22,746 nt of DNA from a virus: positions 1-22,746 of IMG/VR virus record IMGVR_UViG_3300008110_000913, one strand, 5' to 3'. Positions 4,208 through 22,746 of the stretch are shown here, in pieces. Positions within the stretch are counted from its first letter, which is position 1. Every line of letters starts with the position of its first letter. Below the pieces are notes generated by a model that worked only from the letters and a program-made list of their open reading frames with translations, had not been told where the DNA came from and ran no database searches. The position numbers were made by a program, and so were the translations under genes.

Positions 4208-4399
4208 TTAATCCAAAGATAGATCGTTATGGTTGTGAACTTTTTTTCTAAAATCCTCATCTGTTAAATACAAATGGATTGCTCGCTCGCTTAGTTTTTG
4301 GAAAGAAAACTTTCGTTTAATGCATTCTACTCTAAAATTTTCAAACAAGTCTTTGTCTATTTTGACGCTTGTTAAGGTTTGGTTTTTGTCTGTACTCAT
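4208..4399 (-). CDS. Small ribbon-helix-helix-like DNA-binding protein
   Basis: The 63-aa protein has the profile of an Arc/MetJ/CopG-type ribbon-helix-helix protein. It has a short strand (TLTSVKIDKDLF, residues 9-20), then a helix (ENFRVECIKRKFS) and a second helix (FQKLSERAIHLYLTDEDFRKKV). Such dimers insert a beta-ribbon into the DNA major groove and commonly repress their own operon. The ATG overlaps the stop of the upstream GIY-YIG gene by 4 nt (ATGA), so the two are probably co-translated. A role as repressor or partner of the endonuclease gene is possible. The fold assignment is from pattern only; an antitoxin role is not supported because no toxin gene is beside it. Confidence 0.6.
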   Translation of the reverse strand: MSTDKNQTLTSVKIDKDLFENFRVECIKRKFSFQKLSERAIHLYLTDEDFRKKVHNHNDLSLD

Positions 4400-4833
4400 A
4401 ATATTATATTTATTGGGTATTGTTTTGCTAATTTATAATTTGGGTTTTTTACAATTTGTCTAATTTGATGTTCACTTAAAGGAATATCTTTACTGTTAAT
4501 CAATACATTTAAAGAAGAATATACTTTTCCATTGTATTCTACTTTAGCCGGGACACGTTTAGATATTTTAAATATTTCTCCGATTTCCCATTGTTCTGAG
4601 GTTACTATAATTTCTTTATTTTTTATTGGGTGACCTTCGGATAGTAATTTTTCTATCCAATATGTTTCTACATCATAAAAAATATCCAATATTTTCATTT
4701 TTATGTCATATTTCCCTAGATGACTTGTATGATCATAGAATCGAGATTTGGGGCGAGATGATTTCCCTACATAGAATATATTATTTTTTTCATCTATTAA
4801 CCCATATACGTATGTTTTTGTGCCTTTTTCCAT
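4396..4833 (-). CDS. GIY-YIG endonuclease with C-terminal DNA-binding module (putative homing endonuclease)
   Basis: The N-terminal domain (residues 7-75) fits the GIY-YIG nuclease fold. It has TYVYGLID as the first half of the motif and FYVGKS as the second. A candidate catalytic Arg is in SRFYDH (R31) and a metal-binding Glu in YWIEKLL (E61), followed by PIKNKE. The C-terminal part (about 95-130) reads like a NUMOD/helix-turn-helix module: KVEYNGKVYSSL, then IPLSEHQIRQIVKN. This pairing is characteristic of free-standing phage homing endonucleases of the Seg type, which cut DNA lacking the gene and promote its own spread. It forms a two-gene unit with the RHH-like protein and sits between a nuclease gene and the glycosyltransferases, with a promoter-like motif upstream. 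Confidence 0.75.
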   Translation of the reverse strand: MEKGTKTYVYGLIDEKNNIFYVGKSSRPKSRFYDHTSHLGKYDIKMKILDIFYDVETYWIEKLLSEGHPIKNKEIIVTSEQWEIGEIFKISKRVPAKVEYNGKVYSSLNVLINSKDIPLSEHQIRQIVKNPNYKLAKQYPINIIL

Positions 4834-6410: not shown

Positions 6411-6471
6411 GGAAAAAGAAACCTCCACGATAGCGAGTGTTGGAGGTTTCGCCGTTACAGTTTTGTAACGG
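6411..6471 (-). terminator. Double-hairpin intrinsic terminator
   Basis: On the minus strand two hairpins stand in tandem after the gene ending at 6485. The first has CCGTTAC and GTAACGG as a 7-bp stem (6452-6471) around a 6-nt loop. The second has GAAACCTCCA and TGGAGGTTTC as a perfect 10-bp stem (6418-6450) with a 13-nt loop, followed by TTTTTCC. The second is a classic rho-independent terminator and would end the transcript of the small tagged genes at 7695-6485. The first hairpin may stabilise the RNA end. Confidence 0.82.
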
Positions 6472-6484
6472 TCCTAAATGTTAT

Positions 6485-6793
6485 TTATATAATATTATTA
6501 TTAAAGGCATATTCTTGAGCTGCATCTACTAGCTCTTTAGAGTCAATGTCTGTTTCACCTCTTGCTACAAGTGTTTCATAAGCAATATCTTGTAGATCAC
6601 TATAGCCATCTGGGTCTGTTTTATCATTGGCATAAAAAGATGGTCTTTCTTCTTTTGGGAGAGATTTGTAACTATCTATAAAGTCTTCGATTACTCTATC
6701 TGTGATTGTGTTATTTTCATTCAATCTAGCTTTATATTCACTTTCAGTGATTAGGCCAGCTAACATTTGCATTCTAAGAGTTTCTTTATTCAT
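6485..6793 (-). CDS. Tagged small protein A1 (shared N-terminal module)
   Basis: The 102-aa protein begins with a tag (residues 1-26: MNKETLRMQMLAG, then LITESEYKARLNE) that recurs on two otherwise different proteins in this window. After it the body is acidic: VIEDFIDSYKSLPKEERPSF, NDKTDPDGYSDLQDIAYETL and IDSKELVDAAQEYAFNNN. The tag holds [LI]xE-type sequences (ITE at 17, LNE at 26) that resemble T4 prohead protease sites. I infer, without proof, that the tag is a prohead-targeting peptide. The start overlaps the end of the 37-aa upstream gene by 8 nt, and the gene is the last before the double terminator. Function of the body unknown. Confidence 0.8.
   Translation of the reverse strand: MNKETLRMQMLAGLITESEYKARLNENNTITDRVIEDFIDSYKSLPKEERPSFYANDKTDPDGYSDLQDIAYETLVARGETDIDSKELVDAAQEYAFNNNII
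6716..6793 (-). repeat. Tag module, copy 1 (N-terminus of the 102-aa protein)
   Basis: This encodes the first 26 residues shared with the copies at 7618-7695 and 10249-10326. Similarity is visible in the DNA as well as the protein, for example in the start region ending TTTCTTTATTCAT on the plus strand. The module therefore seems to have spread by duplication or recombination. Confidence 0.75.
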
Positions 6794-6899
6794 TTTCGTA
6801 TTGTTTTAGTAATTGTTGGTTACGAGCAATCATGTTGAGACGTTTTACTAAGTTACCTCTGTTACGTTTTGGTTTGCCTTCTTTTCTTGCTTTTGCCAT
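6786..6899 (-). CDS. Very small basic protein, 37 aa
   Basis: A 37-codon frame runs from the ATG at 6899-6897 to TAA 6788-6786. It starts 1 nt after the stop of the upstream 77-aa gene and overlaps the next gene by 8 nt, so it fills an otherwise unexplained 107-nt gap exactly. Eleven of 37 residues are Lys or Arg, most of them in the first 20 (KARKEGKPKRNRGNLVKR), then comes a helical tail (LNMIARNQQLLKQY). Such a peptide would bind nucleic acid or an acidic protein partner. Function unknown; a DNA-condensing internal protein is one possibility given the tagged neighbours. Confidence 0.6.
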   Translation of the reverse strand: MAKARKEGKPKRNRGNLVKRLNMIARNQQLLKQYENE

Positions 6900-6900
6900 C

Positions 6901-7134
6901 TTACTTTAAAATTCCAGCTAGGCGCTGCATTCTTTTCATTTCCTCAATTTGAGTCCCATCTCCCACAACTGCTTCATAATCTATCATGCTAAGAGTTCCA
7001 GCAAAACGAGATAAATCAATTGCGTTTTCTGCTACACGGTGTAGATCCATATCATCTTTTGCATCCTCTCTAGCATATTCTAGAAGACGGATGAATAGAG
7101 GAACATCTAATTTGATTGTGTCTTTTGGATTCAT
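6901..7134 (-). CDS. Small protein, 77 aa, with C-terminal echo of the tag
   Basis: The protein is mostly helical and acidic in its first half (LDVPLFIRLLEYAREDAK, DDMDLHRVAENAIDL) and resembles a type of small conserved protein that I associate with marine T4-like phages, without known function. Its last residues, MKRMQRLAGILK, echo the RMQMLAGLIT core of the N-terminal tag on its neighbours, but here at the C-terminus. The ATG at 7134 follows the upstream stop by 3 nt, and the downstream 37-aa gene begins 1 nt after its stop. The gene belongs to the unit that runs from the motif at 7704 to the double terminator. Confidence 0.78.
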   Translation of the reverse strand: MNPKDTIKLDVPLFIRLLEYAREDAKDDMDLHRVAENAIDLSRFAGTLSMIDYEAVVGDGTQIEEMKRMQRLAGILK

Positions 7135-7137
7135 GGT

Positions 7138-7695
7138 TTATTTGTTTGAACTTGATTTTACTTTAGCATAGTATTCATAAGCATCTTCAATAGCATCAAA
7201 TTCTTTTGTCTCAAGTCTAGTAGCTACGGGGTGAGCAACTATCCATTTTTTTCCTTCTTGGTATATAGATACTTTTGATATGTCCTCACTTAATTCATCT
7301 TCATACACTTGAGCAGCATCTGTCTCTTCATGTGAAGGTGCTTCGGGCATTTCATCATCCATTTCTTCGTTCAATGAAGTACTTTTAGTAAAGTGTTCAA
7401 ATGCAAGTTCGTAATCTGTTTTTTCACGATCGAAAATATTTCCAACCATTCCCATACCAACGAAGTTTTCGTTGAGTGATTCTTTTGTTGAACCGTATTT
7501 ATCATTTATTTCATCCCATTGATCATTACTTACATATATTACAGATGTTGATCCATCATCATAAGTAACCTCATATGAACTATCCTTATTTTGTTTTGCA
7601 CTAACAATATCTTTATTTTCTTGCAATTTTGCTTTGTATTCGCTTTCAGTGATTACACCTGAAAGTAATTGCATGCGTAGGGTTTCTTTGTTCAT
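7138..7695 (-). CDS. Tagged protein A2 (shared N-terminal module), acidic, 185 aa
   Basis: Residues 1-26 repeat the tag (MNKETLRMQLLSG, VITESEYKAKLQE). A short beta-rich segment follows (YEVTYDDGSTSVIYVS), then a very acidic middle with two SLNE sequences (ESLNENFVGMG and TSLNEEMDDEM) and ELSED. The C-terminal quarter (KVSIYQEGKKWIVAHPVATRLE, then FDAIEDAYEYY) looks like a small folded domain. The LxE sequences could be maturation-protease sites separating tag, spacer and domain, as in T4 internal proteins; this is inference. A 17-nt promoter-like motif lies 8 nt before the ATG, and the gene heads the transcription unit ending at 6411-6471. Confidence 0.8.
   Translation of the reverse strand: MNKETLRMQLLSGVITESEYKAKLQENKDIVSAKQNKDSSYEVTYDDGSTSVIYVSNDQWDEINDKYGSTKESLNENFVGMGMVGNIFDREKTDYELAFEHFTKSTSLNEEMDDEMPEAPSHEETDAAQVYEDELSEDISKVSIYQEGKKWIVAHPVATRLETKEFDAIEDAYEYYAKVKSSSNK
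7618..7695 (-). repeat. Tag module, copy 2 (N-terminus of the 185-aa protein)
   Basis: This encodes 26 residues closely matching the copy at 6716-6793, with conservative changes (M to L, A to S, L to V, R to K). The rest of the two proteins is unrelated, so the module behaves as a separable tag. Confidence 0.75.
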
Positions 7696-7703
7696 TTTTT
7701 ATA

Positions 7704-7720
7704 TTTTATTATAAATATTA
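7704..7720 (-). promoter_or_regulatory. Promoter-like 17-nt motif before the tagged 185-aa gene
   Basis: The minus strand reads TAATATTTATAATAAAA, one mismatch from the two identical copies at 10338-10354 and 14954-14970. The first three bases are the stop codon of the gene ending at 7718. The motif ends 8 nt before the ATG at 7695. It contains TATAAT, which fits a -10 or a T4-late-like element, but no -35 box is evident. Confidence 0.5.
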
Positions 7721-7984
7721 TGGATTTTTTGTCTCTAGCATTTTTTTAACCTTCTGGAGGTATAGGATAGCATCCATGTGTTCCTCTAGAGCGTGGTTGA
7801 TATAATCTATTAGGTCTAGATCGGTACGATCTAAATCTGTTCCATACTTTTCTTTACCCATTGCTGCTCTTTCAACAAACTTATCAATTATTGAATCAAC
7901 AATTGAATCTGTTTTTGGGATTGATCGTTGTGGGGTATCTTTAGTGGGATGCCTAGGATTCCACTCAAAACTTGTTTTGCTCAT
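7718..7984 (-). CDS. Small MazG-like protein
   Basis: The 88-aa protein carries GKEKYGTDLDRTDL (residues 43-56) followed by a helix INHALEEHMDAILYLQKV with a metal-ligand-like EExxxD pattern (E67, E68, D71). This combination is common in small phage proteins related to all-alpha MazG-type nucleotide pyrophosphohydrolases, which hydrolyse (d)NTPs to monophosphates or remove modified nucleotides. The protein is shorter than a full MazG domain, so catalytic activity is uncertain. Its ATG overlaps the stop of gp62 by 4 nt (ATGA), placing it at the end of the clamp-loader operon, which fits a role in nucleotide pools during replication. Confidence 0.6.
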   Translation of the reverse strand: MSKTSFEWNPRHPTKDTPQRSIPKTDSIVDSIIDKFVERAAMGKEKYGTDLDRTDLDLIDYINHALEEHMDAILYLQKVKKMLETKNP

Positions 7985-8415
7985 TGCTTTAATAATTTAT
8001 CTGCTTCTTTATCATCAACTCCCATATCGTAAAGTACTCTGCGTGCTCCCGGTTCACGAAGGATATCAAGGTATTCTTCCGCCTCGCCTAAACTACATTC
8101 AAAATGTTTTGCAATATAGTCTATTACCTCCATGTTTTTCTTCTTACGATTAGTCTTCAAATACTTAAAAAATGTTTTTTGTTTCGGGATCATCTCTTTG
8201 TAAATGTTGTAAAGTTGTTTTTTATTGTCGTATGGGATGGTTTGGACATAATTTACAAATTCAATGTAGCGTATATCCATCGATACGTATCGATTGATCA
8301 TGTAAGAATTCCATTTATCCCACGATTCTTCCGAAATTTCTTCAATAGGAGTTTTATAAAGGGTGATTTCATTCAACCACCCAAATATATCCTTTATATA
8401 TTTTTGTTTACTCAC
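7981..8415 (-). CDS. 62: Clamp-loader small subunit, gp62-like
   Basis: The 144-aa protein resembles the gp62 subunits of marine T4-like phages. It has an N-terminal IFGWLNEITLYKTP segment, then MINRYVSMD and IEFVNYVQTI, then the basic FFKYLKTNRKKKN stretch, and a C-terminal helical DILREPGARRVLYDMG region. Gp62 joins four gp44 subunits to make the ATP-driven loader that opens the gp45 clamp and places it on primed DNA. It is shorter than T4 gp62, as in marine relatives. The start codon is GTG (8415-8413), overlapping the upstream stop as GTGA. Position downstream of gp44 in the same operon supports the call. Confidence 0.82.
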   Translation of the reverse strand: MSKQKYIKDIFGWLNEITLYKTPIEEISEESWDKWNSYMINRYVSMDIRYIEFVNYVQTIPYDNKKQLYNIYKEMIPKQKTFFKYLKTNRKKKNMEVIDYIAKHFECSLGEAEEYLDILREPGARRVLYDMGVDDKEADKLLKQ

Positions 8416-8639
8416 AAAGTAATATCTTTATACTCTGCACGAAGTTCTGATGGGAGAGAATCTATTAGGATTTTCTTGCTTTCCAAATCATAAAATACGG
8501 GAATGGGGATTAGGGCATCTTCATCTGCTCCAATCATAAATTTGGAGATTTTACGGATAATAACTGCTTGTCCGAATAGTTTTCCTCCGTTGAATCCTTC
8601 AACAGATGTTGTTTTTGTAAAGTCAATGTTCAATTGCAA
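8412..8639 (-). CDS. Small conserved-looking protein between gp44 and gp62 genes
   Basis: The 75-aa protein (LNIDFTKTTSVEGFNGG, then KLFGQAVIIRKISKFMIG, IPIPVFYDLESKKILIDSLP) looks like a small beta-rich domain. An in-frame TAG stands directly upstream, so translation must begin at a non-ATG codon, most simply the TTG at 8639-8637 or the one six bases further on. The start lies inside the end of the 53-aa gene (17-nt overlap), and the stop overlaps the GTG of gp62, so weak initiation could be rescued by coupling. The location suggests a role with the clamp loader, but I recognise no family. Confidence 0.65.
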   Translation of the reverse strand: MQLNIDFTKTTSVEGFNGGKLFGQAVIIRKISKFMIGADEDALIPIPVFYDLESKKILIDSLPSELRAEYKDITL

Positions 8640-8784
8640 CTATCAGGTTCATTCCGATTGAGGCTAATACTTCATGTATATCTTGGTATACTGTGTTCAG
8701 TAAATGTAAATGTCCTACTGCCCAAAAAGGTATGGCCAAATTTTGGGATATCCAAGAAAGTGTATATTTTAAGAAATACTTCAT
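8623..8784 (-). CDS. Small hydrophobic protein, 53 aa, directly after gp44
   Basis: A 53-codon frame fills the otherwise empty 141-nt gap between gp44 and the 75-aa gene. It starts at an ATG overlapping the gp44 stop (ATGA at 8784-8781) and ends at TGA 8625-8623. The peptide is hydrophobic and aromatic (KYFLKYTLSWI, LAIPFWAVGHLHLL) with a second hydrophobic patch near the end (IGMNLIVAIEH). It may contact membrane or bury against the clamp loader, although no clear 20-residue membrane helix is present. The junctions support a real gene; function unknown. Confidence 0.55.
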   Translation of the reverse strand: MKYFLKYTLSWISQNLAIPFWAVGHLHLLNTVYQDIHEVLASIGMNLIVAIEH

Positions 8785-9689
8785 ATTACCTCTATAATCT
8801 TTGCAATTGCAGACATTACATTAATTTCTTTATCTATTCTAAAATTTGCTTGATATAGATGCTCGTTTAATACAATTGCAACCATACCTTCTTTTCCCGG
8901 AGCGTATTTTGGAGCATATTCATATAAGCTACGATATAATTCTTCAAAATCTTTAACATTTGAATCCGCTATAATTTGCCGAATGGTCAACCAACTTCTT
9001 ATACCCATCAACTCCTTTATCACATCTTTAATATAGTTTGTTGAGGTTAAAACTGTTTTATCAAGTACAATAGCATCATCTTTTACAGACATTTGTAAAA
9101 CATTCAACATTTTACGCATGTCAGGGTAATATTGTAGGATCAATGTTTTAATATCCTCAGGTGTATATGATAAATTTAATTGGTCTGTTAGCATCCAAGT
9201 TAAATGGTTGTACACATCTTTTTTGGTGGGAGGTACAATTTTAAGTACCTGGCAACGTGATTGTAAAGGATCAATGATTCGCTCTATAAAGTTACAAGTT
9301 AAGATAAAGCGAGTTGAGCGTGAGAATGTCTCAATTACGTTTCGCAAGGCGGCTTGCCCCTGAATGGTGATAAAATCTGCTTCATCTAATATTACTACTT
9401 TGATACCTTTCCAAGATGCAGCACTAGCAAATCCCTTTACTTTTTCTCTAATAGTGTCAATTCCATTCTCGTCGGATGCGTTGATGTAAAGGTAATCGCA
9501 ATCTAAATTTTTAACTATAATTTTTGCTAGTGTAGTTTTTCCACAGCCAGGCGGGCCATAGAAGATAAAATTTTGGATATCGCCTTGATCAAGGTATTTT
9601 TGAATTGTGTCTTTAATATTCTCGTTTCCAACATAATATTCGAGTTTGGTAGGACGGAAACGTTCTACAAATAACGTATTTTCTTTCAT
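8781..9689 (-). CDS. 44: Clamp-loader AAA+ ATPase subunit, gp44/RFC-small-subunit type
   Basis: The 302-aa protein has all the landmarks of the RFC/gp44 family: FVERFRPTKL near the N-terminus, Walker A GPPGCGKTTL (residues 45-54), Walker B VVILDEAD (98-105), sensor-1 TCN and the SRC motif in LQSRCQVLK (about 144-146). It hydrolyses ATP to open and close the gp45 clamp on DNA. I prefer the ATG at 9689 (MKENTLFVERF). An ATG six bases upstream (9695) and a TTG further up are possible, but the family normally begins just before the FxERFRP motif. The gene follows a strong terminator and heads an operon with two small genes, gp62 and a MazG-like gene. Confidence 0.93.
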   Translation of the reverse strand: MKENTLFVERFRPTKLEYYVGNENIKDTIQKYLDQGDIQNFIFYGPPGCGKTTLAKIIVKNLDCDYLYINASDENGIDTIREKVKGFASAASWKGIKVVILDEADFITIQGQAALRNVIETFSRSTRFILTCNFIERIIDPLQSRCQVLKIVPPTKKDVYNHLTWMLTDQLNLSYTPEDIKTLILQYYPDMRKMLNVLQMSVKDDAIVLDKTVLTSTNYIKDVIKELMGIRSWLTIRQIIADSNVKDFEELYRSLYEYAPKYAPGKEGMVAIVLNEHLYQANFRIDKEINVMSAIAKIIEVI

Positions 9690-9702
9690 AACCATAATAT
9701 AC

Positions 9703-9727
9703 AAAAAAAGCTTGCATTTTGCAAGCT
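9703..9727 (-). terminator. Strong intrinsic terminator
   Basis: On the minus strand AGCTTGCA and TGCAAGCT form a perfect 8-bp stem with a 3-nt loop (9709-9727), followed at once by seven Ts. It lies 26 nt after the stop of the tagged gene ending at 9754 and just before gp44, separating the two transcription units. GTATATTA directly after the T-run could be part of the gp44 promoter. Confidence 0.88.
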
Positions 9728-9753
9728 CTTTAAACTATTCTATTTAACAGAAT

Positions 9754-10326
9754 TTATTTTTTAATGTATTTTTTAAAATTATCTAAATTAACATTATTTA
9801 CAGCATCAACAAAATTATTCCATTCTGGGTTGGCCACATTTATATCATCCTCTTCATATTCACTGGTGAATTGGACTGCATCGGCCATGTCATCAAATTT
9901 TTCGTTTAAGTCATCTAATGTTTGATAATCAGCAGGCATAAATAAATCTTTTTCTCCACTATAAAGGTTAAAAGGAAAGTTTCTTGAAGTGGTTGAATTT
10001 GATAAAAATTCATTAAAACTATCACCTGCTTCTTTATCTCCTTTTTGAAGACCCGATTGAAGATCTTTTAATTTTTTAAAAAATTTAGGTGTTACATAAT
10101 TATGGTCTACAATTCCTTCTTTTTTCTTGGTGCTTTTGCCCGTATCCATATTATAAGTGGTAGTTTCAGCATTAGCAGGGATTTTAACAAGGATTTGAAA
10201 AAGGGTTGCAAGTTTTTCGAAATTTAAACTTTTAAATTTCCCTTTATTTTCTTCAATTTTTTCTTTATATTGACCTTCAGTAATAATACCAGCCAACATT
10301 TGCATTCTAAGTGTTTTTTTATTCAT
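9754..10326 (-). CDS. Tagged protein A3 (shared N-terminal module), 190 aa
   Basis: I start the gene at the ATG at 10326-10324, where the tag begins (MNKKTLRMQMLAG, IITEGQYKEKIEE). The longer reading upstream would cross the promoter-like motif and adds only a Phe-rich leader. The body has LNFEKLATLFQILVKIPAN, KDLQSGLQKGDKEAGDSFNE and acidic stretches (DDLNEKFDDMADAVQF, EYEEDDINVA), ending VDAVNNVNLDNFKKYIKK. It is unrelated to the bodies of the other two tagged proteins. A 17-nt motif lies 11 nt before the start and a strong terminator 26 nt after the stop, so it appears to be a single-gene unit. Prohead cargo is a plausible but unproven role. Confidence 0.78.
   Translation of the reverse strand: MNKKTLRMQMLAGIITEGQYKEKIEENKGKFKSLNFEKLATLFQILVKIPANAETTTYNMDTGKSTKKKEGIVDHNYVTPKFFKKLKDLQSGLQKGDKEAGDSFNEFLSNSTTSRNFPFNLYSGEKDLFMPADYQTLDDLNEKFDDMADAVQFTSEYEEDDINVANPEWNNFVDAVNNVNLDNFKKYIKK
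10249..10326 (-). repeat. Tag module, copy 3 (N-terminus of the 190-aa protein)
   Basis: This encodes the third copy of the 26-residue module. It keeps TLRMQMLAG and ITE and is more diverged in the second half (GQYKEKIEE instead of SEYKARLNE). It lies 2.5 kb from the nearest copy, with the clamp-loader operon between. Confidence 0.72.
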
Positions 10327-10392: not shown

Positions 10393-10953
10393 TTATTTTT
10401 CTCCTTGGGAATACCATCCAATATATCTTAATCTATTTTCAGGCCAATATCTATTTAATGTTGCTTTATCTACTGGGGTATTTATCCATTTATCTCTCAA
10501 TTTATAGTCAGTGTATCCACTTTTTGGGTCACTATGTGAGATATGTACATTTCCATCTGGATCTGTAAACCTATATGTATTAGCTAAAGTATAGTATGTA
10601 ATATCTGGGGTTCCATTTCCATTATCTGTGGTTAGAGGAAGAAGATTGTTTTGATAGCGTTCTCTTTGTTCAGCATCTTCTTTGTCCCTTTTTTCTCTAT
10701 AATTTTTTCCCCAAAAATCATCGCGGTATTTTTTTGTTATTCTAGTAACTTTACTTTTTTCTTGGGGTGTTAAAGGTCTACCCATTATGTTTTGAATATG
10801 GTCTTTAGCTTCATATTCGTGGGACCACTGGTTTTTTTCTGTGTATGGGTTGTTTTGGAAAAAAACATCCAGTTCAGAAGCTATATCAATTTCTTCGGTG
10901 AGGATTTTTTTGATTTCCTCTTTGATTAGCTGTTTGAGTTGTGAGTGTTTCAT
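10393..10953 (-). CDS. Protein with amphipathic N-terminal tag B, 186 aa
   Basis: The N-terminus (SQLKQLIKEEIKKILTEE, residues 4-21) is an amphipathic helix shared with the protein at 11939-12334 but not with the TLRMQ-tag proteins. The rest is charged and possibly DNA- or protein-binding (GRPLTPQEKSKVTRITKKYRDDF, NYREKRDKEDAEQRERYQ). It is followed by an aromatic C-terminal domain (ITYYTLANTYRFTDPDG, TDYKLRDKW, RYWPENRLRYIGWY). The sequence ILTEE could be a prohead-protease-like LxE site. It begins 1 nt after the stop of the 325-aa gene (TAAAATG). No known family recognised. Confidence 0.75.
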   Translation of the reverse strand: MKHSQLKQLIKEEIKKILTEEIDIASELDVFFQNNPYTEKNQWSHEYEAKDHIQNIMGRPLTPQEKSKVTRITKKYRDDFWGKNYREKRDKEDAEQRERYQNNLLPLTTDNGNGTPDITYYTLANTYRFTDPDGNVHISHSDPKSGYTDYKLRDKWINTPVDKATLNRYWPENRLRYIGWYSQGEK

Positions 10954-10954
10954 T

Positions 10955-11932
10955 TTATTTTATAATTCCTGCTCTAACAAGCATTTGACGTTGTTCCCAG
11001 TCCATTTCTTCCTTTAGCTTTTGTTTAAAGTCAAATGCTACGGGTTGGAGTTTGGCTCTTTGGTCAGCTGATATTCCAGTTACTATAAGTTTGTATTGTC
11101 TGTCAGTTCCAGTTCCAACAGGTTCTATTTCAAATTTGGCTGTAGGTACTTCTCCTAAACGGGCTTGTAGTTGTTTTCTTAATTTATCTGCTTGATCAGC
11201 AGTATTTACTGTGGTAGAAAGAGGTGGAACTGTTGCTTTTTCAGGTTGAACTGTTACTTGTGGGGTTTGTTCTTCATCTTCTCCTTTAGCAATATCTATA
11301 AAGTTAAAAGAAACATTAGCATTATCCATTATAGTTTTTAAAACTTTTTTAAGATATGCTTTTGGATTAAATGGTGATTTTTCTTGTGGAAACAAAATCA
11401 TTCCATTATCCACTACATAATGTATATCTTGTTCCATTTTACCTGCATATTTTTTCAAATTATCAGGTGTTTTCATAGGAAAATAGTTCTTACCATATTT
11501 TCCATAAAACTCTAGTGGTAAAGATTTTCCTGGGAGGGTTTTGAGCCAATCTTCAAATTCACCTTCATTGTCTTCTGCTCTCCAGGCTTCAAATTTAGAT
11601 TGGTTTTTTTCAACTGTTTCATCCCATGCTTCAGGAGCTCTATTCTTGATATCAGCTATTTTATTATCTTTTTCCAAGTCAGAACGTGAATCCCAATCTT
11701 TCCAAGCAGCGCCTGCTTTTTGAGCAGGAATTGAAGGACCAAATACTTTAGCAATAACTTTGGAGTCCCTCATATTTTGAGCGTATATTCCGTAATTTTT
11801 AATATCGTTTAATGCTTTTAAAGCATCATCGATGGATTCAGGTTGTATAGCTATATCATATTGGGTGCGATTAGCTTTTTGTTCTCCACCTTGTTCGTCT
11901 TCTATTTCGCGAAGGATATCAGTTAATTTCAT
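10955..11932 (-). CDS. Hypothetical protein, 325 aa, with C-terminal tag echo
   Basis: The protein starts MKLTDILREIEDEQGGEQ, a short acidic amphipathic helix of the kind seen on phage internal proteins. The middle is Trp- and acid-rich (AAWKDWDSRSDLEKD, KFEAWRAEDNEGEFEDWL). There is then a Pro/Thr/Val linker (around TPQVTVQPEKATVPPLS) and a C-terminal alpha/beta-like region (ADKLRKQLQARLG, AKFEIEPVG, YKLIVTGISADQ). It ends in EQRQMLVRAGIIK, reminiscent of the RMQRLAGILK end of the 77-aa protein. It lies between two proteins with tag B, 6 nt from one and 1 nt from the other. A structural or ejected internal protein is possible. Function not recognised. Confidence 0.75.
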   Translation of the reverse strand: MKLTDILREIEDEQGGEQKANRTQYDIAIQPESIDDALKALNDIKNYGIYAQNMRDSKVIAKVFGPSIPAQKAGAAWKDWDSRSDLEKDNKIADIKNRAPEAWDETVEKNQSKFEAWRAEDNEGEFEDWLKTLPGKSLPLEFYGKYGKNYFPMKTPDNLKKYAGKMEQDIHYVVDNGMILFPQEKSPFNPKAYLKKVLKTIMDNANVSFNFIDIAKGEDEEQTPQVTVQPEKATVPPLSTTVNTADQADKLRKQLQARLGEVPTAKFEIEPVGTGTDRQYKLIVTGISADQRAKLQPVAFDFKQKLKEEMDWEQRQMLVRAGIIK

Positions 11933-11938
11933 AATTTT

Positions 11939-12334
11939 TTAAACTCCTCTCCCTTTAGGAGAATTTCTAGTAAATACTATAGTTGTTTCTTCTTTACCCC
12001 AAGGTTTAACTCTGAAATGAACTTTATTTTGTTTATCAAAATATACGTTTCTTATTCCTGAGGGGGTTTTTCCTTTGATTGGGAAACTTTTTTGGATATC
12101 TTGTTCAATATCAACCCCAGATTTGTGATACACATTTATGTAAAACTCAGAAGAAGACCCTGAGGCGAATCTGCTCAGGGAAGAAAAACTTGAATTAGGT
12201 AGAATATTTTTAAGAGTTTGAATCGTACCTTCAATATCATTTCTTAAAACATCCTTATTTGTTGGGGTCCAATTTTCCTTCAATATTTTAGAAATTTCTT
12301 CTTTGATCAATTTTTTAAGTTGTTCTTTTCCCAT
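11939..12334 (-). CDS. Protein with amphipathic N-terminal tag B, 131 aa
   Basis: Residues 1-21 (EQLKKLIKEEISKILKEN) match tag B of the 186-aa protein at 10393-10953. The body is different: DIEGTIQTLKNILPNSSF, a Ser-rich stretch (SFSSLSRFASGSSSEFYI) and a C-terminal basic domain (VYFDKQNKVHFRVKPWGKEETTIVF, ending SPKGRGV). The small folded C-terminal part resembles a compact beta-sheet domain but I recognise no family. The ATG at 12334 is 3 nt from a shortened copy of the promoter-like motif. It heads the group of four genes ending at the terminator at 9703-9727. Confidence 0.75.
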   Translation of the reverse strand: MGKEQLKKLIKEEISKILKENWTPTNKDVLRNDIEGTIQTLKNILPNSSFSSLSRFASGSSSEFYINVYHKSGVDIEQDIQKSFPIKGKTPSGIRNVYFDKQNKVHFRVKPWGKEETTIVFTRNSPKGRGV

Positions 12335-12604: not shown

Positions 12605-14536
<1,932 letters not shown>

Positions 14537-14540
<4 letters not shown>

Positions 14541-20275: not shown

Positions 20276-21094
20276 TTATTGGTAATTGAATCTGTTATAA
20301 AACCAAGCGTAGTGCTGTTTAATTTTATCACAGTTGTGGAATCCTAAAATACTTGTATAGTCTTCAACTAAAGGTTGAACTTTAGGTTGTATTTGATGGT
20401 CTCCAAATATCCCATGTATAACATCATTTTCATGTGTTAGCTGCTCAACATTATCAAAATCATGCTGGAAATATGGGAGCTCTAAATAATTGTATATTCG
20501 TTTAATTTCGGTTTCAGGGTCACGTGTGAAATCCTCAAATCGAATAAAGAGCATATGCTGATCATATCCTTGCTGTACTGCATCGTATAGCCATTCTAAA
20601 GATGGGCCAACGGGAGGGGCAACAGAGAAATGTTGTAAACGTGTATCGGCTGTCATGTTTTTAAGTTCTATTCCGTTTACAATTTGAGGGTCTTTGTGTG
20701 GATTTTTTCTGTAATTTTTTTCCATAGAGGCAAATATACCTCTCAAATCTCGAACCATTACAATGGCTTTTGACCCAGGTTGGATAAAATTAGCGAATCT
20801 AAAGTTGCCTAACCATGCTCTGCTTTTATCTATAACATATGGTCGATCTGTTAGAGCATTAAAATAACCATAGAGACCATTTACACAAAAGCTATGGAAC
20901 GCTTTTGTCATTTCTGTTTGGTCTTGTGCTTTGAAAGCATCACCAGTTGAATAAATTGAGCGAGCATTTAGTAGAAATTCTACAACACCAGATGTTGGGG
21001 TTGAATAAATTTCTGGGTTTTGCATTAGAACATTTTGTAACAACGTTGAGCCTGCTCGTGGAAGCGAGGCATTGAAGAAAACTTTTTTTACCAT
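20276..21094 (-). CDS. Sulfotransferase (PAPS-dependent)
   Basis: The 272-aa protein begins with the P-loop-like PAPS-binding motif, SLPRAGSTLLQNVL (10-23), and later has the 3'-phosphate motif VRDLRGIFASMEKNYRK (114-130, R115 and S123). RFEDFTRDPETEIKRIYNYL is typical of the C-terminal part of this family. It transfers sulfate from PAPS to a hydroxyl or amine of a sugar, peptide or small molecule in the cytoplasm. It starts 6 nt after the fibre gene, so it is probably expressed with it. The acceptor may be a sugar or Tyr on the fibre or a host glycan; this is inference. No signal peptide or membrane anchor is visible. Confidence 0.88.
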   Translation of the reverse strand: MVKKVFFNASLPRAGSTLLQNVLMQNPEIYSTPTSGVVEFLLNARSIYSTGDAFKAQDQTEMTKAFHSFCVNGLYGYFNALTDRPYVIDKSRAWLGNFRFANFIQPGSKAIVMVRDLRGIFASMEKNYRKNPHKDPQIVNGIELKNMTADTRLQHFSVAPPVGPSLEWLYDAVQQGYDQHMLFIRFEDFTRDPETEIKRIYNYLELPYFQHDFDNVEQLTHENDVIHGIFGDHQIQPKVQPLVEDYTSILGFHNCDKIKQHYAWFYNRFNYQ

Positions 21095-21100
21095 AATTTG

Positions 21101-22534
21101 TTATTGTGTTAGCATTATTTTATATGTGTTTCCGTTTAATAAAATATCTAAAGTATGTGTTGAACTAGCACTTGTAGCTGATGTAACTGGACCAAATGGG
21201 TAAGTTGTCGAGCCTAAAGCGATTTGTCCGTTTGCTGTTGCTGTAGCTCCCGTACCTAAGATGAGTGAGCCTGAAAAATCGCCTGATTGGGCTCCGCTTC
21301 CTAGTGCTATGTTTTGATTTCCTACTGTATTATTGGCTAAAGTATTATAGCCTAGGGCAATGTTGTCATATCCTGTTGTGTTAAAAGATAAAGCATTTAA
21401 GCCTAGGGCAATGTTTCGGTTTCCTTCTGTATTTAGACTTAAAGCATTTTGGCCTAAAGCAACATTATATGAACCTGAGGTGTTAAAGGATAAAGCATTG
21501 TTCCCTAAAGCAACATTAAAATTTCCTATCGTATTATATTTTAAAGAGGCATAACCTAAAGCAACGTTGTTAGATCCGGAGGTATTTGAAAGTAAAGTGT
21601 TTTGACCTAAGGCAACGTTATTATATCCTGTTAAATTTGACTGTAAAACATTTAGGCCTAAAGCAATGTTATTGTTTCCTGTTGTGTTTTGATTTAAAGC
21701 TGCATTACCTAAAGCAATGTTATTTGAACCCGATGTGTTAGAAGTTAAAACATTATGACCTAAAGCAACATTATAATTCCCTACTGTGTTTTGATTTAAA
21801 GCTGTATTACCTAAAGCAACATTATTGTTTCCTGTTAAGTTTTCAAATAAAGCATCTCTACCTAAAGCAACGTTATTGTATCCTGTTATGTTGTAGCGTA
21901 AAGCACTATAACCTATAGCAACGTTGTAGTTTCCTTCTGTGTTGTTTCGTAATGCATTTTGACCTAACGCAACGTTTTGTGAGCCGGAAGTGTTGTTAAA
22001 TAGAGTTGCATATCCTAAACCAACATTACTATTTCCTATTAAGTTATTAACTAAAGCATTTTGGCCTATAGCAACGTTGTAGTTTCCTATTGTGTTTTGA
22101 TTTAAAGCACTATAACCTAAAGCAATGTTATTTGAACCCGATGTATTTGCGCCTAGAGCAACGGTGCCTAGAGCAATATTATGGGTTCCTACTGAATTTG
22201 AATATAAAGCGCTCTCACCTAGAGCAATGTTTTGGATTCCTGTTGTATTTTGATTTAATGCTTTGTAACCTTGAGCTATGTTGTAGTTTCCTGTTGTATT
22301 TGAATTTAAAGCACTTGTGCCTAAAGCAATGTTTTGGTTTCCTGTTGTTGTAGTATTTAAAGAAAAACCATCAACTAAAATATTGTTGTTTCCATCCACT
22401 TGAAACAAGCTGCTACCCCCACCATTTAAAGCATATGATGCTGTTAGAGAGTAGGATGCTGTTCCTATTAATGAGCCATTAGGGATTTCTAATGATCCTG
22501 AGGCTAATATTAATGATCCTGATAAAATAGGCAT
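21101..22534 (-). CDS. Repeat-rich phage fibre/adhesin-like protein
   Basis: The 477-aa protein has three parts. The N-terminus (1-67) is Ser/Gly/Leu-rich (GSLILASGSLEIPNGSL, then TASYSLTASYALNGGG). Residues 68-424 form about 21 consecutive 17-residue repeats of the type N-[IV]-A-L-G-x-x-A-L-x-x-N-T-x-G-x-x. The C-terminus ends SSTHTLDILLNGNTYKIMLTQ. The repeats resemble the left-handed beta-roll of trimeric adhesin heads (YadA-type) and of phage fibres, so a rod-like, probably trimeric virion fibre binding the host surface is likely. A paralogue with a similar C-terminus ends 21 nt upstream, and the sulfotransferase gene starts 6 nt downstream. Whether it is tail fibre or head decoration cannot be decided. 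Confidence 0.8.
   Translation of the reverse strand: MPILSGSLILASGSLEIPNGSLIGTASYSLTASYALNGGGSSLFQVDGNNNILVDGFSLNTTTTGNQNIALGTSALNSNTTGNYNIAQGYKALNQNTTGIQNIALGESALYSNSVGTHNIALGTVALGANTSGSNNIALGYSALNQNTIGNYNVAIGQNALVNNLIGNSNVGLGYATLFNNTSGSQNVALGQNALRNNTEGNYNVAIGYSALRYNITGYNNVALGRDALFENLTGNNNVALGNTALNQNTVGNYNVALGHNVLTSNTSGSNNIALGNAALNQNTTGNNNIALGLNVLQSNLTGYNNVALGQNTLLSNTSGSNNVALGYASLKYNTIGNFNVALGNNALSFNTSGSYNVALGQNALSLNTEGNRNIALGLNALSFNTTGYDNIALGYNTLANNTVGNQNIALGSGAQSGDFSGSLILGTGATATANGQIALGSTTYPFGPVTSATSASSTHTLDILLNGNTYKIMLTQ
21263..22333 (-). repeat. Tandem 51-bp repeats in the fibre gene
   Basis: About 21 in-frame units of 51 bp encode the 17-residue repeat. Units keep NxALG and the N-T-x-G turn, while the residues after ALG and after the Leu vary. 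No insertion interrupts the phase; the last unit (SGAQSGDFSGSL) is degenerate. Such arrays can gain or lose units by recombination or slippage. Confidence 0.85.
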
Positions 22535-22555: not shown

Positions 22556-22746
22556 TTATTGAACCATCAATAACCTATATGTGTTTCCGTTTAAGTTAAT
22601 TGCTAATGTGTGAGTTGAGCTTGCACTTACCTCTGAGGCAACTGGTCCGAGTGGTGTTGTAGATGATCCTAGAGCTAACTGTCCATTTGCTGTTGCTGTA
22701 GCTCCTGCACCTAAAACAAGTGAGCCGGAAAAATCACCTGTTCCAA
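22556..22746 (-). CDS. Fibre/adhesin-like paralogue, C-terminal end only
   Basis: The open frame enters at the right edge and stops at TAA 22558-22556, giving 62 visible residues. It matches the end of the neighbouring fibre protein: GDFSGSLVLGAGATATANGQ corresponds to GDFSGSLILGTGATATANGQ, and the last residues NGNTYRLLMVQ to NGNTYKIMLTQ. The middle differs (TTPLGPVASEVS against TTYPFGPVTSATS). The next gene starts 21 nt later. The two genes are therefore tandem paralogues sharing the terminal module, with the more distant part of this copy outside the window. Confidence 0.85.
   Translation of the reverse strand, partial: GTGDFSGSLVLGAGATATANGQLALGSSTTPLGPVASEVSASSTHTLAINLNGNTYRLLMVQ

Follow-up and report, generated by a model that had tools for sequence, protein, structure and literature searches.

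The closest described counterpart of the system reported here is found in bacteriophage T4, where, as the articles citing Mullaney and Black (1996) summarise it, a capsid-targeting sequence (CTS) on the internal proteins IPII and IPIII, together with Alt and IPI, is cut by gp21 (PMC5694885, PMC9958956, PMC3012670). The T4 internal proteins are diverse anti-defence proteins with the leader as their only common part (PMC3012670); IPIII is required on one E. coli strain (PMC9391042), the injected protein Alt is an ADP-ribosyltransferase (PMC9958956), and a 2023 review called the recruitment of proteins into the T4 scaffolding core mysterious (PMC9958956). N-terminal signals are also known from phage P1, where the first 30 residues of DarB suffice for a foreign protein to be packaged in the head (PMC9024508), and from the giant phages SPN3US and phiKZ, whose ejection proteins carry propeptides that the prohead protease cuts after Glu, with identical N-termini on two diverged paralogues (PMC5694885). 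Here we analyse the complete 22,746-base IMG/VR record IMGVR_UViG_3300008110_000913 (hereafter the window), in which three otherwise differing proteins open with the same 26-residue module, here called T1. In a clade of T4-like phages, T1 stands at the N-terminus of many unrelated proteins, and on homologous bodies other leaders (T2, T3 and T4-type) can take its place. The sequences make it very probable that T1 is a prohead-targeting leader.

Capsid-targeting leaders as such are already known, and the present system is a variant of them. As with the T4 CTS, a short N-terminal leader heads otherwise diverse proteins, the genomes of tagged relatives encode a gp21-family, glutamate-specific prohead protease within a T4-type head gene order, and some of the cargo resembles ADP-ribosyltransferases, as Alt is one. 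Whereas the CTS spans about 10 residues and is a single leader conserved in two proteins, the leaders here span about 26 or 20 residues and form at least four families with hundreds of bodies. What is new, and unlike the CTS, is that several leader families can replace one another, that the set of cargo is very large, that leaders are swapped at the predicted cut site, and that the first half of T1 is like the scaffold's C-terminal tail; [LI]xE joints within bodies, where shuffled modules meet, set the system apart as well. For the P1 Dar proteins, in contrast to the leaders here, no consensus could be found, and the P1 head genes differ (PMC9024508). The propeptides of SPN3US and phiKZ are mostly longer than 100 residues, are cut at AxE or SxE, and come without a confirmed counterpart of the gp22 scaffold (PMC5694885); their cut sites have been measured, whereas those of the leaders here are predicted. 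The leader strings found no match in a literature search, which did not extend to subscription journals.

One N-terminal module on many unrelated proteins

The three tagged open reading frames (ORFs) lie on the minus strand at 6485-6793 (translation beginning MNKETLRMQMLAGLITESEYKARLNEN), 7138-7695 (MNKETLRMQLLSGVITESEYKAKLQEN) and 9754-10326 (ATG at 10326; MNKKTLRMQMLAGIITEGQYKEKIEEN), in agreement with a preliminary description of this DNA, according to which they share their first 26 residues and differ in the remainder. A search of the window with the protein of 7138-7695 matches the other two at E values of 1e-10 and 2e-8, identity in the alignment of all three is high over columns 1-27 and collapses thereafter, and the remainders fall into three separate body clusters (E<=1e-4). 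Between pairs of T1 copies, 16-23 of the 81 nt differ, and 4-9 of the codon differences are synonymous; given these many synonymous changes, the module is kept as a protein and is not a recent copy of DNA. Each tag holds two sites of the [LI]xE type, ITE at residues 15-17 and [LI]xE at 24-26. Earlier these had been named as ITE and LNE, of which the type holds, whereas LNE ends only one window copy and the others end in LQE and IEE. Leaders and bodies are arranged as follows:

6716-6793, minus strand: T1 leader MNKETLRMQMLAGLITESEYKARLNE of gene 6485-6793, predicted cut after LNE (E26)
6485-6715, minus strand: body of gene 6485-6793, predicted cargo of 76 residues, no known family
7618-7695, minus strand: T1 leader MNKETLRMQLLSGVITESEYKAKLQE of gene 7138-7695, predicted cut after LQE
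7138-7617, minus strand: body of gene 7138-7695, one module up to ..KESLNE, then module NFVGMGMVGNIFDREKTDYELAFEHF in common with a head-core protein
10249-10326, minus strand: T1 leader MNKKTLRMQMLAGIITEGQYKEKIEE of gene 9754-10326, predicted cut after IEE
9754-10248, minus strand: body of gene 9754-10326, no known family

Searches of the window bodies against PHROGs and Pfam gave nothing credible.

Beyond the window, a degenerate DNA pattern that demanded R-M-Q, G, ITE and YK, and by which the conservation of these residues is partly a matter of construction, matches at least 119 stretches in IMG/VR and none of 84,980 prokaryote genomes, so that T1 is not a chance match. All sequences except that of Flavobacterium phage immuto are metagenomic fragments, and counts are lower bounds. 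The profile search proposed in the preliminary description, run with a hidden Markov model of the tag over the collected IMG/VR loci, recovers at least 201 proteins whose bodies form 75 clusters, and in 158 of 181 copies T1 begins exactly 6 residues after the Met, as befits an extreme N-terminal module. Near-complete contigs carry about 5 to 12 candidate genes with a leader or a tail of the kind described below.

Among phage isolates, tblastn finds T1 in phage immuto (Immutovirus; laboratory partner Flavobacterium LMO8) only, in the variant form MKKQILSEQFKRMQFLAGIITE. Candidate leader-bearing proteins of immuto are KNV73_gp230 (25061-25456), the frame at 111675-112139 and the T3 proteins at 1803-2318, 103806-104354 and 118632-118931. 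Phage T4 gives no obvious match in this search, in which the T4 CTS sequence itself was not compared, and tblastn of T2 in phages gives no match. The whole tagged protein, searched in the same way, matched only a haloarchaeal virus, which we dismissed as chance. Since groES/groEL, a PD-(D/E)XK nuclease and glycosyltransferases are common to the window and immuto, the gene content suggests a Bacteroidota host for the window phage.

Could T1 instead be a domain that is never removed? SHOCT (PF09851) has about 30 residues with two amphipathic helices around a conserved Gly and a GIxTExE[FY] spacing (PMC3581485). The tag has the same spacing in GIITExEY, two of the three window proteins give sub-threshold Pfam matches to SHOCT (12.5 and 14.9 bits), and the AlphaFold model contains two helices. 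If so, the tag would be a helical hairpin that binds protein, nucleic acid or membrane in the infected cell, and its ITE would, as in SHOCT proteins, be unrelated to proteolysis. We consider this very unlikely. SHOCT is absent from the families listed for 120 leader proteins (E<=0.01), the third window protein has no match, and swaps with non-SHOCT leaders, the [LI]xE junction and the scaffold tail would all be left unexplained. SHOCT is moreover mainly cellular, of unknown function, and C-terminal in 89% of its proteins (PMC3581485), whereas the tag is N-terminal. Membership of the tag in SHOCT was rejected, as the scores lie under the Pfam gathering cut-off of 27 bits and the tag stands at the opposite end of the protein.

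Leader swaps at the [LI]xE junction

The three proteins first described as tagged are real, though too narrow a set, as the window holds further leaders and tails on neighbouring genes:

10894-10953, minus strand: T2 leader MKHSQLKQLIKEEIKKILTE of gene 10393-10953, whose body homologues carry T1 (L007) or T3 (L030), with homology from the leader end
12275-12334, minus strand: T2 leader MGKEQLKKLIKEEISKILKE of gene 11939-12334, of the 20-residue leader class
11900-11932, minus strand: probable short T4-type leader MKLTDILREIE of gene 10955-11932, weakest leader class
6901-6936, minus strand: C-terminal KRMQRLAGILK of the 77-residue gene 6901-7134, resembling the scaffold tail
10955-10996, minus strand: C-terminal EQRQMLVRAGIIK of gene 10955-11932, tentatively a diverged form of the same tail

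Regular expressions served to assign the leader classes, the counts of T2 and T3 pattern matches are lower bounds too, and "T4-type" is a class label unrelated to the name of phage T4. The 20-residue T2 consensus in the window is LK[QK]LIKEEI[KS]KIL[TK]E, and in relatives the T3 leader reads MDNFDLKKYLVENKLTxNSxxLNE; the T4-type class is short and the least certain. Among 24 T2 leaders chosen without regard to it, [LIV]xE occupies residues 18-20 in 23, compared with a base rate of 2.5%, and conservation of T2 ends directly after it.

Homologous bodies sit behind differing leaders, and the homology begins at the first residue past [LI]xE in both. The bodies of L047 (T1) and L102 (T2) are 71% identical over 157 residues, with the junctions ..YKAKLDE and SYQSNIGMYEEEFKKRG in the former, and ..IQKILSE and TYQSNIDMYKEEFKKRG in the latter; those of L012 (T1) and L120 (T2) are 68% identical. 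A family with T1 in L007, T2 in L142 and window gene 10393-10953, and T3 in L030 shows 47-75% identity, its junctions running ..YKAKLNE then ELDLPSEVDQYLKDNPF for T1, ..IQKILKE then EIDISAEVAQYVKDNPF for T2, and ..ENRLLKE then DLDLSSEVDQYLKDNPF for T3. In a further trio, L051 (T1), L182 (T2) and L096 (T4-type), all bodies open with GKQ[VI]GTLYHFT: ..YKTKLNE then GKQVGTLYHFT, ..INNVLNE then GKQIGTLYHFT, and MIKLLDILKEITE then GKQVGTLYHFT. Altogether, 71 of 97 cross-class homologous pairs begin no more than 3 residues from the leader end in both members; some cross-class alignments extend into the leader because T2 and T3 are weakly alike. Counted by best pair, 6 of 11 families begin within that distance of both leader ends, and in two of the remaining families the homology begins at another leader end or at an internal [LI]xE joint.

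Such internal joints recur. The segment AVEVP[AT]WLKGKLEDVH comes after the LNE or LTE of a T3 leader, after the LNE of a T1 leader, or after an internal ..EALNE. The first body module of window gene 7138-7695 has a T3-led counterpart (L387:7815-8300, 51% identity), the second module of which sits directly behind a T2 leader in L156. As such, [LI]xE marks joints, as a protease of that specificity would impose.

So at which of its two sites would T1 release the body? That body homology starts after the [LI]xE is the strongest evidence here, and it makes the cut that frees the body more likely to lie at residues 24-26 than at ITE; of the sites first proposed, ITE or LNE, the latter position is thus favoured and ITE is not.

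A separate observation concerns the 525-residue frame L243:5744-7321, an apparent string of KKxKRDRCLRIADRKFNKPSAYKSGA, YHST and YHFT modules with LNE directly before the last. From its sequence it is possibly a polyprotein cut at [LI]xE.

Counterparts among the head-core genes

A gp23-type capsid gene is present in 7 of 30 tagged contigs, and the same 7 encode a gp21-type protease (Peptidase_S77); the 23 others are fragments without capsid and protease genes. The co-occurrence with a prohead protease gene that the preliminary description had suggested checking is therefore found in all 7 tagged contigs that hold a T4-type capsid gene.

In phage T4, scaffold gene 22 sits between the protease and capsid genes. 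The gene at that place in the 7 contigs and in immuto encodes an acidic protein that ends in RMQKLAGII, RFQKLAGII, RWQKLAGIIK or similar (8 of 8). We assigned it as the scaffold by gene position and by its acidic, LNE-rich composition; in a profile search, no profile names it. A search with the scaffold N-terminal peptides found 80 more scaffolds, and the tail motif R-M/F/W-Q-K-LAGI ends 53 of 59 complete ones, the other six having degenerate forms. This tail equals the first half of the T1 tag (LRMQMLAGII). It is also resembled by the end of the 77-residue protein of 6901-7134, whose gene stands directly downstream of a T1 gene both in the window and in many relatives. Beside the tentatively diverged tail of gene 10955-11932, a relative (L140:2969-3898) ends in RKKMLRLAGIIK.

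Further likenesses lie in the same part of the genome. Module LNENFVGMGMVGNIFDREKTDYELAFEHF of window gene 7138-7695 recurs, in more than 20 contigs and with E down to 1e-10, in a core protein encoded just before the protease, the shared consensus being LNENFVGxxxINxxxxRxKxxYELAFEHF. T2-like helices (LRKIIREIIxEE) are found inside this core protein beside gp21, and T3 leaders occur on small genes between the protease and scaffold genes. Scaffolds and T1 bodies contain LNE at 7-fold the expected frequency and other proteins at 1.9-fold; in the latter the reversed tripeptide is near 1-fold.

These positions bear on two other accounts of the tag. According to one, also raised as the alternative in the preliminary description, it attaches proteins to another part of the virion (tail, baseplate or outer capsid) or to a membrane. 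Gly-rich hydrophobic stretches in several tagged bodies speak for this, but they belong to the bodies and not to the leader; the segments that match belong to head-core genes, located between the portal and capsid genes, and no leader was found on the tail genes of near-complete contigs, genes which were not annotated individually. Without support of its own, this account is highly improbable. According to the other, the leaders have no role in targeting and are either 5' gene ends prone to recombination or cassettes for starting translation, in both cases spread by shuffling. While bodies are clearly shuffled behind leaders, it is the protein sequence that is conserved, amid many synonymous changes, several leader families of differing DNA sequence all end in [LI]xE, and the first half of the tag stands at the C-termini of the scaffold and the 77-residue protein, which excludes a translation-start role there; we find this account barely conceivable.

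We return to prohead targeting. A T4-CTS-like leader for loading cargo, removed by a gp21-type cut, had been put forward for T1 before, and the swaps at [LI]xE, the Peptidase_S77 gene in 7 of 7 contigs, the scaffold tail and the core-protein module support that mechanism; as a refinement, T1 belongs to a set of four or more leader types. During prohead formation, the first helix of the leader (LRMQMLAG) would dock at the site of the scaffold's C-terminal tail, at the inner shell or core, and the docked leader would have its cargo built into the prohead core. The prohead protease would then cut past [LI]xE (residue 26), and probably past ITE as well, freeing the mature body, and the same protease would also cut some bodies internally, at additional [LI]xE joints. 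The cleaved leader would escape, while the body would remain with the DNA and reach the next host cell in the manner of Alt and the T4 internal proteins.

Several points weigh against this. Head genes are absent from the 22.7-kb fragment that forms the window, and the protease is consequently seen in relatives only. The match of the scaffold tail is confined to the first half of T1, the ITE of T1 was built into the search pattern, and [LIVMA]xE stands exactly at residues 24-26 in 106 of 139 T1 copies, about a quarter being without it. T2 and T3 are themselves weakly alike, and a single large family dominates the LNE excess of the T1 bodies. Lastly, a look through the literature for virion proteomics or N-termini of these phages found none; for immuto virion proteomics, the sole paper that names the host strain includes neither that phage nor mass spectrometry.

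A more tentative extension, which we hold to be possible though somewhat less likely than its opposite, is that the leader classes mimic the docking segments of different core components, one each. The leaders would then act as an address code, placing cargo in different core layers or amounts, and multi-module cargo would be cut at [LI]xE like a polyprotein. The model for T1 would be the scaffold's C-terminal tail, that for T2 the LRKIIREIIxEE helices within the core protein beside gp21, and that for T3 the beginning of the small genes lying between gp21 and the scaffold.

Cargo and neighbouring genes

Bodies fall into 75 clusters behind T1 (E<=1e-4) and 233 over all leader classes. Most are without a known domain, and a few have enzyme domains, Zeta-toxin-like P-loop kinases and nucleotidase-like (NT5C) bodies being mostly found on the weaker T4-type leader. 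The short leader MI[KS]LxxLLKE[IV] precedes P-loop kinases of Zeta-toxin-like type and a nucleotidase-like protein in L158:8673-9434, L165:4832-5581, L208:8800-9624 and L152:833-1345; these proteins are candidate injected enzymes.

The YHFT family (L051:4076-4687, L182:2697-3350, L096:9808-10263, L227:3659-4240, L242:10751-11170) occurs behind three leader types and has the motifs GKQ[VI]GTLYHFT at its start, TRNKN and DGDKLSxxYKxxP. Its AlphaFold model matches a tRNA 2'-phosphotransferase of the ADP-ribosyltransferase superfamily (Foldseek probability 1.00, E 6e-3), and the top matches of a second fold search were all uncharacterised phage proteins. As the model is of modest quality (predicted local distance difference test, pLDDT, 67), the match is a lead and not proof, and the modelled fold makes the YHFT cargo a possible functional parallel to T4 Alt. 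For window gene 10393-10953, AlphaFold with 8 relatives reached a predicted template modelling score (pTM) of 0.45, too poor for a fold search. Long Gly-rich hydrophobic stretches (e.g. LVGGIVGALVGYF) are seen in the tagged bodies of L064:108-677, L071:5643-6137, L121:1191-1919, L154:17842-18702 and L120:1756-2751, which are perhaps membrane-inserting ejected proteins.

It might also be that the leaders do direct proteins into the head core, with cutting, yet the bodies are structural core or filler, like T4 gp67 and gp68, rather than ejected effectors. The module in common between T1 bodies and the core protein beside gp21, the T2-like helices inside that protein and the many bodies without a known domain are in line with this. 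More than 200 body families with a patchy, genome-specific distribution are, however, not what a conserved core would look like, enzyme folds occur in some bodies (ADP-ribosyltransferase-like, Zeta-toxin-like kinase, NT5C nucleotidase), and T4 internal proteins, which act in the host, are equally variable (PMC3012670, PMC9391042). We therefore judge a purely structural role unlikely, and keep to bodies that would be ejected.

The genes of the window, all on the minus strand, are of the T4-like phage type. At least five predicted cargo genes form a cluster between the replication genes (family B DNA polymerase, AAA clamp-loader subunit and clamp-loader A-type protein) and groEL; a leader was looked for on the replication genes and groEL, and none was seen. 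Other genes encode a PD-(D/E)XK nuclease, GroEL/GroES, GTP cyclohydrolase and glycosyltransferases. GroEL and GroES are phage-encoded at 12605-14540 and likewise adjoin in immuto (40295-42237), and a GIY-YIG endonuclease-like gene (E 3e-6) at 4396-4833 lies between glycosyltransferases and the PD-(D/E)XK nuclease. At 20276-21094, between GTP cyclohydrolase I and a repeat protein, stands a sulfotransferase-family gene (Sulfotransfer_3, E 2e-15). The adjoining genes 21101-22534 and 22556-22744, the second of which runs off the record, have 17-residue NIALG-type repeats and similar C-termini, and are probably tail-fibre or adhesin paralogues. Short intergenic hairpins, GC-rich or perfect, at 6421-6449 (AACCTCCA..TGGAGGTT) and 9703-9728 (AAGCTTGCA..TGCAAGCT) are likely terminators that end transcription units.

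The likeness between T1 and the scaffold tail suggests an answer to the question of how the core recruits its cargo, along with a specific docking motif, and the leaders swapped on the same cargo amount to a natural experiment repeated many times. A scan for leaders could list injected proteins of uncultured phages from sequence alone, any leader-headed frame being a candidate early effector or anti-defence protein. As such, more than 200 body families, nearly all of them unannotated, become a defined test set.

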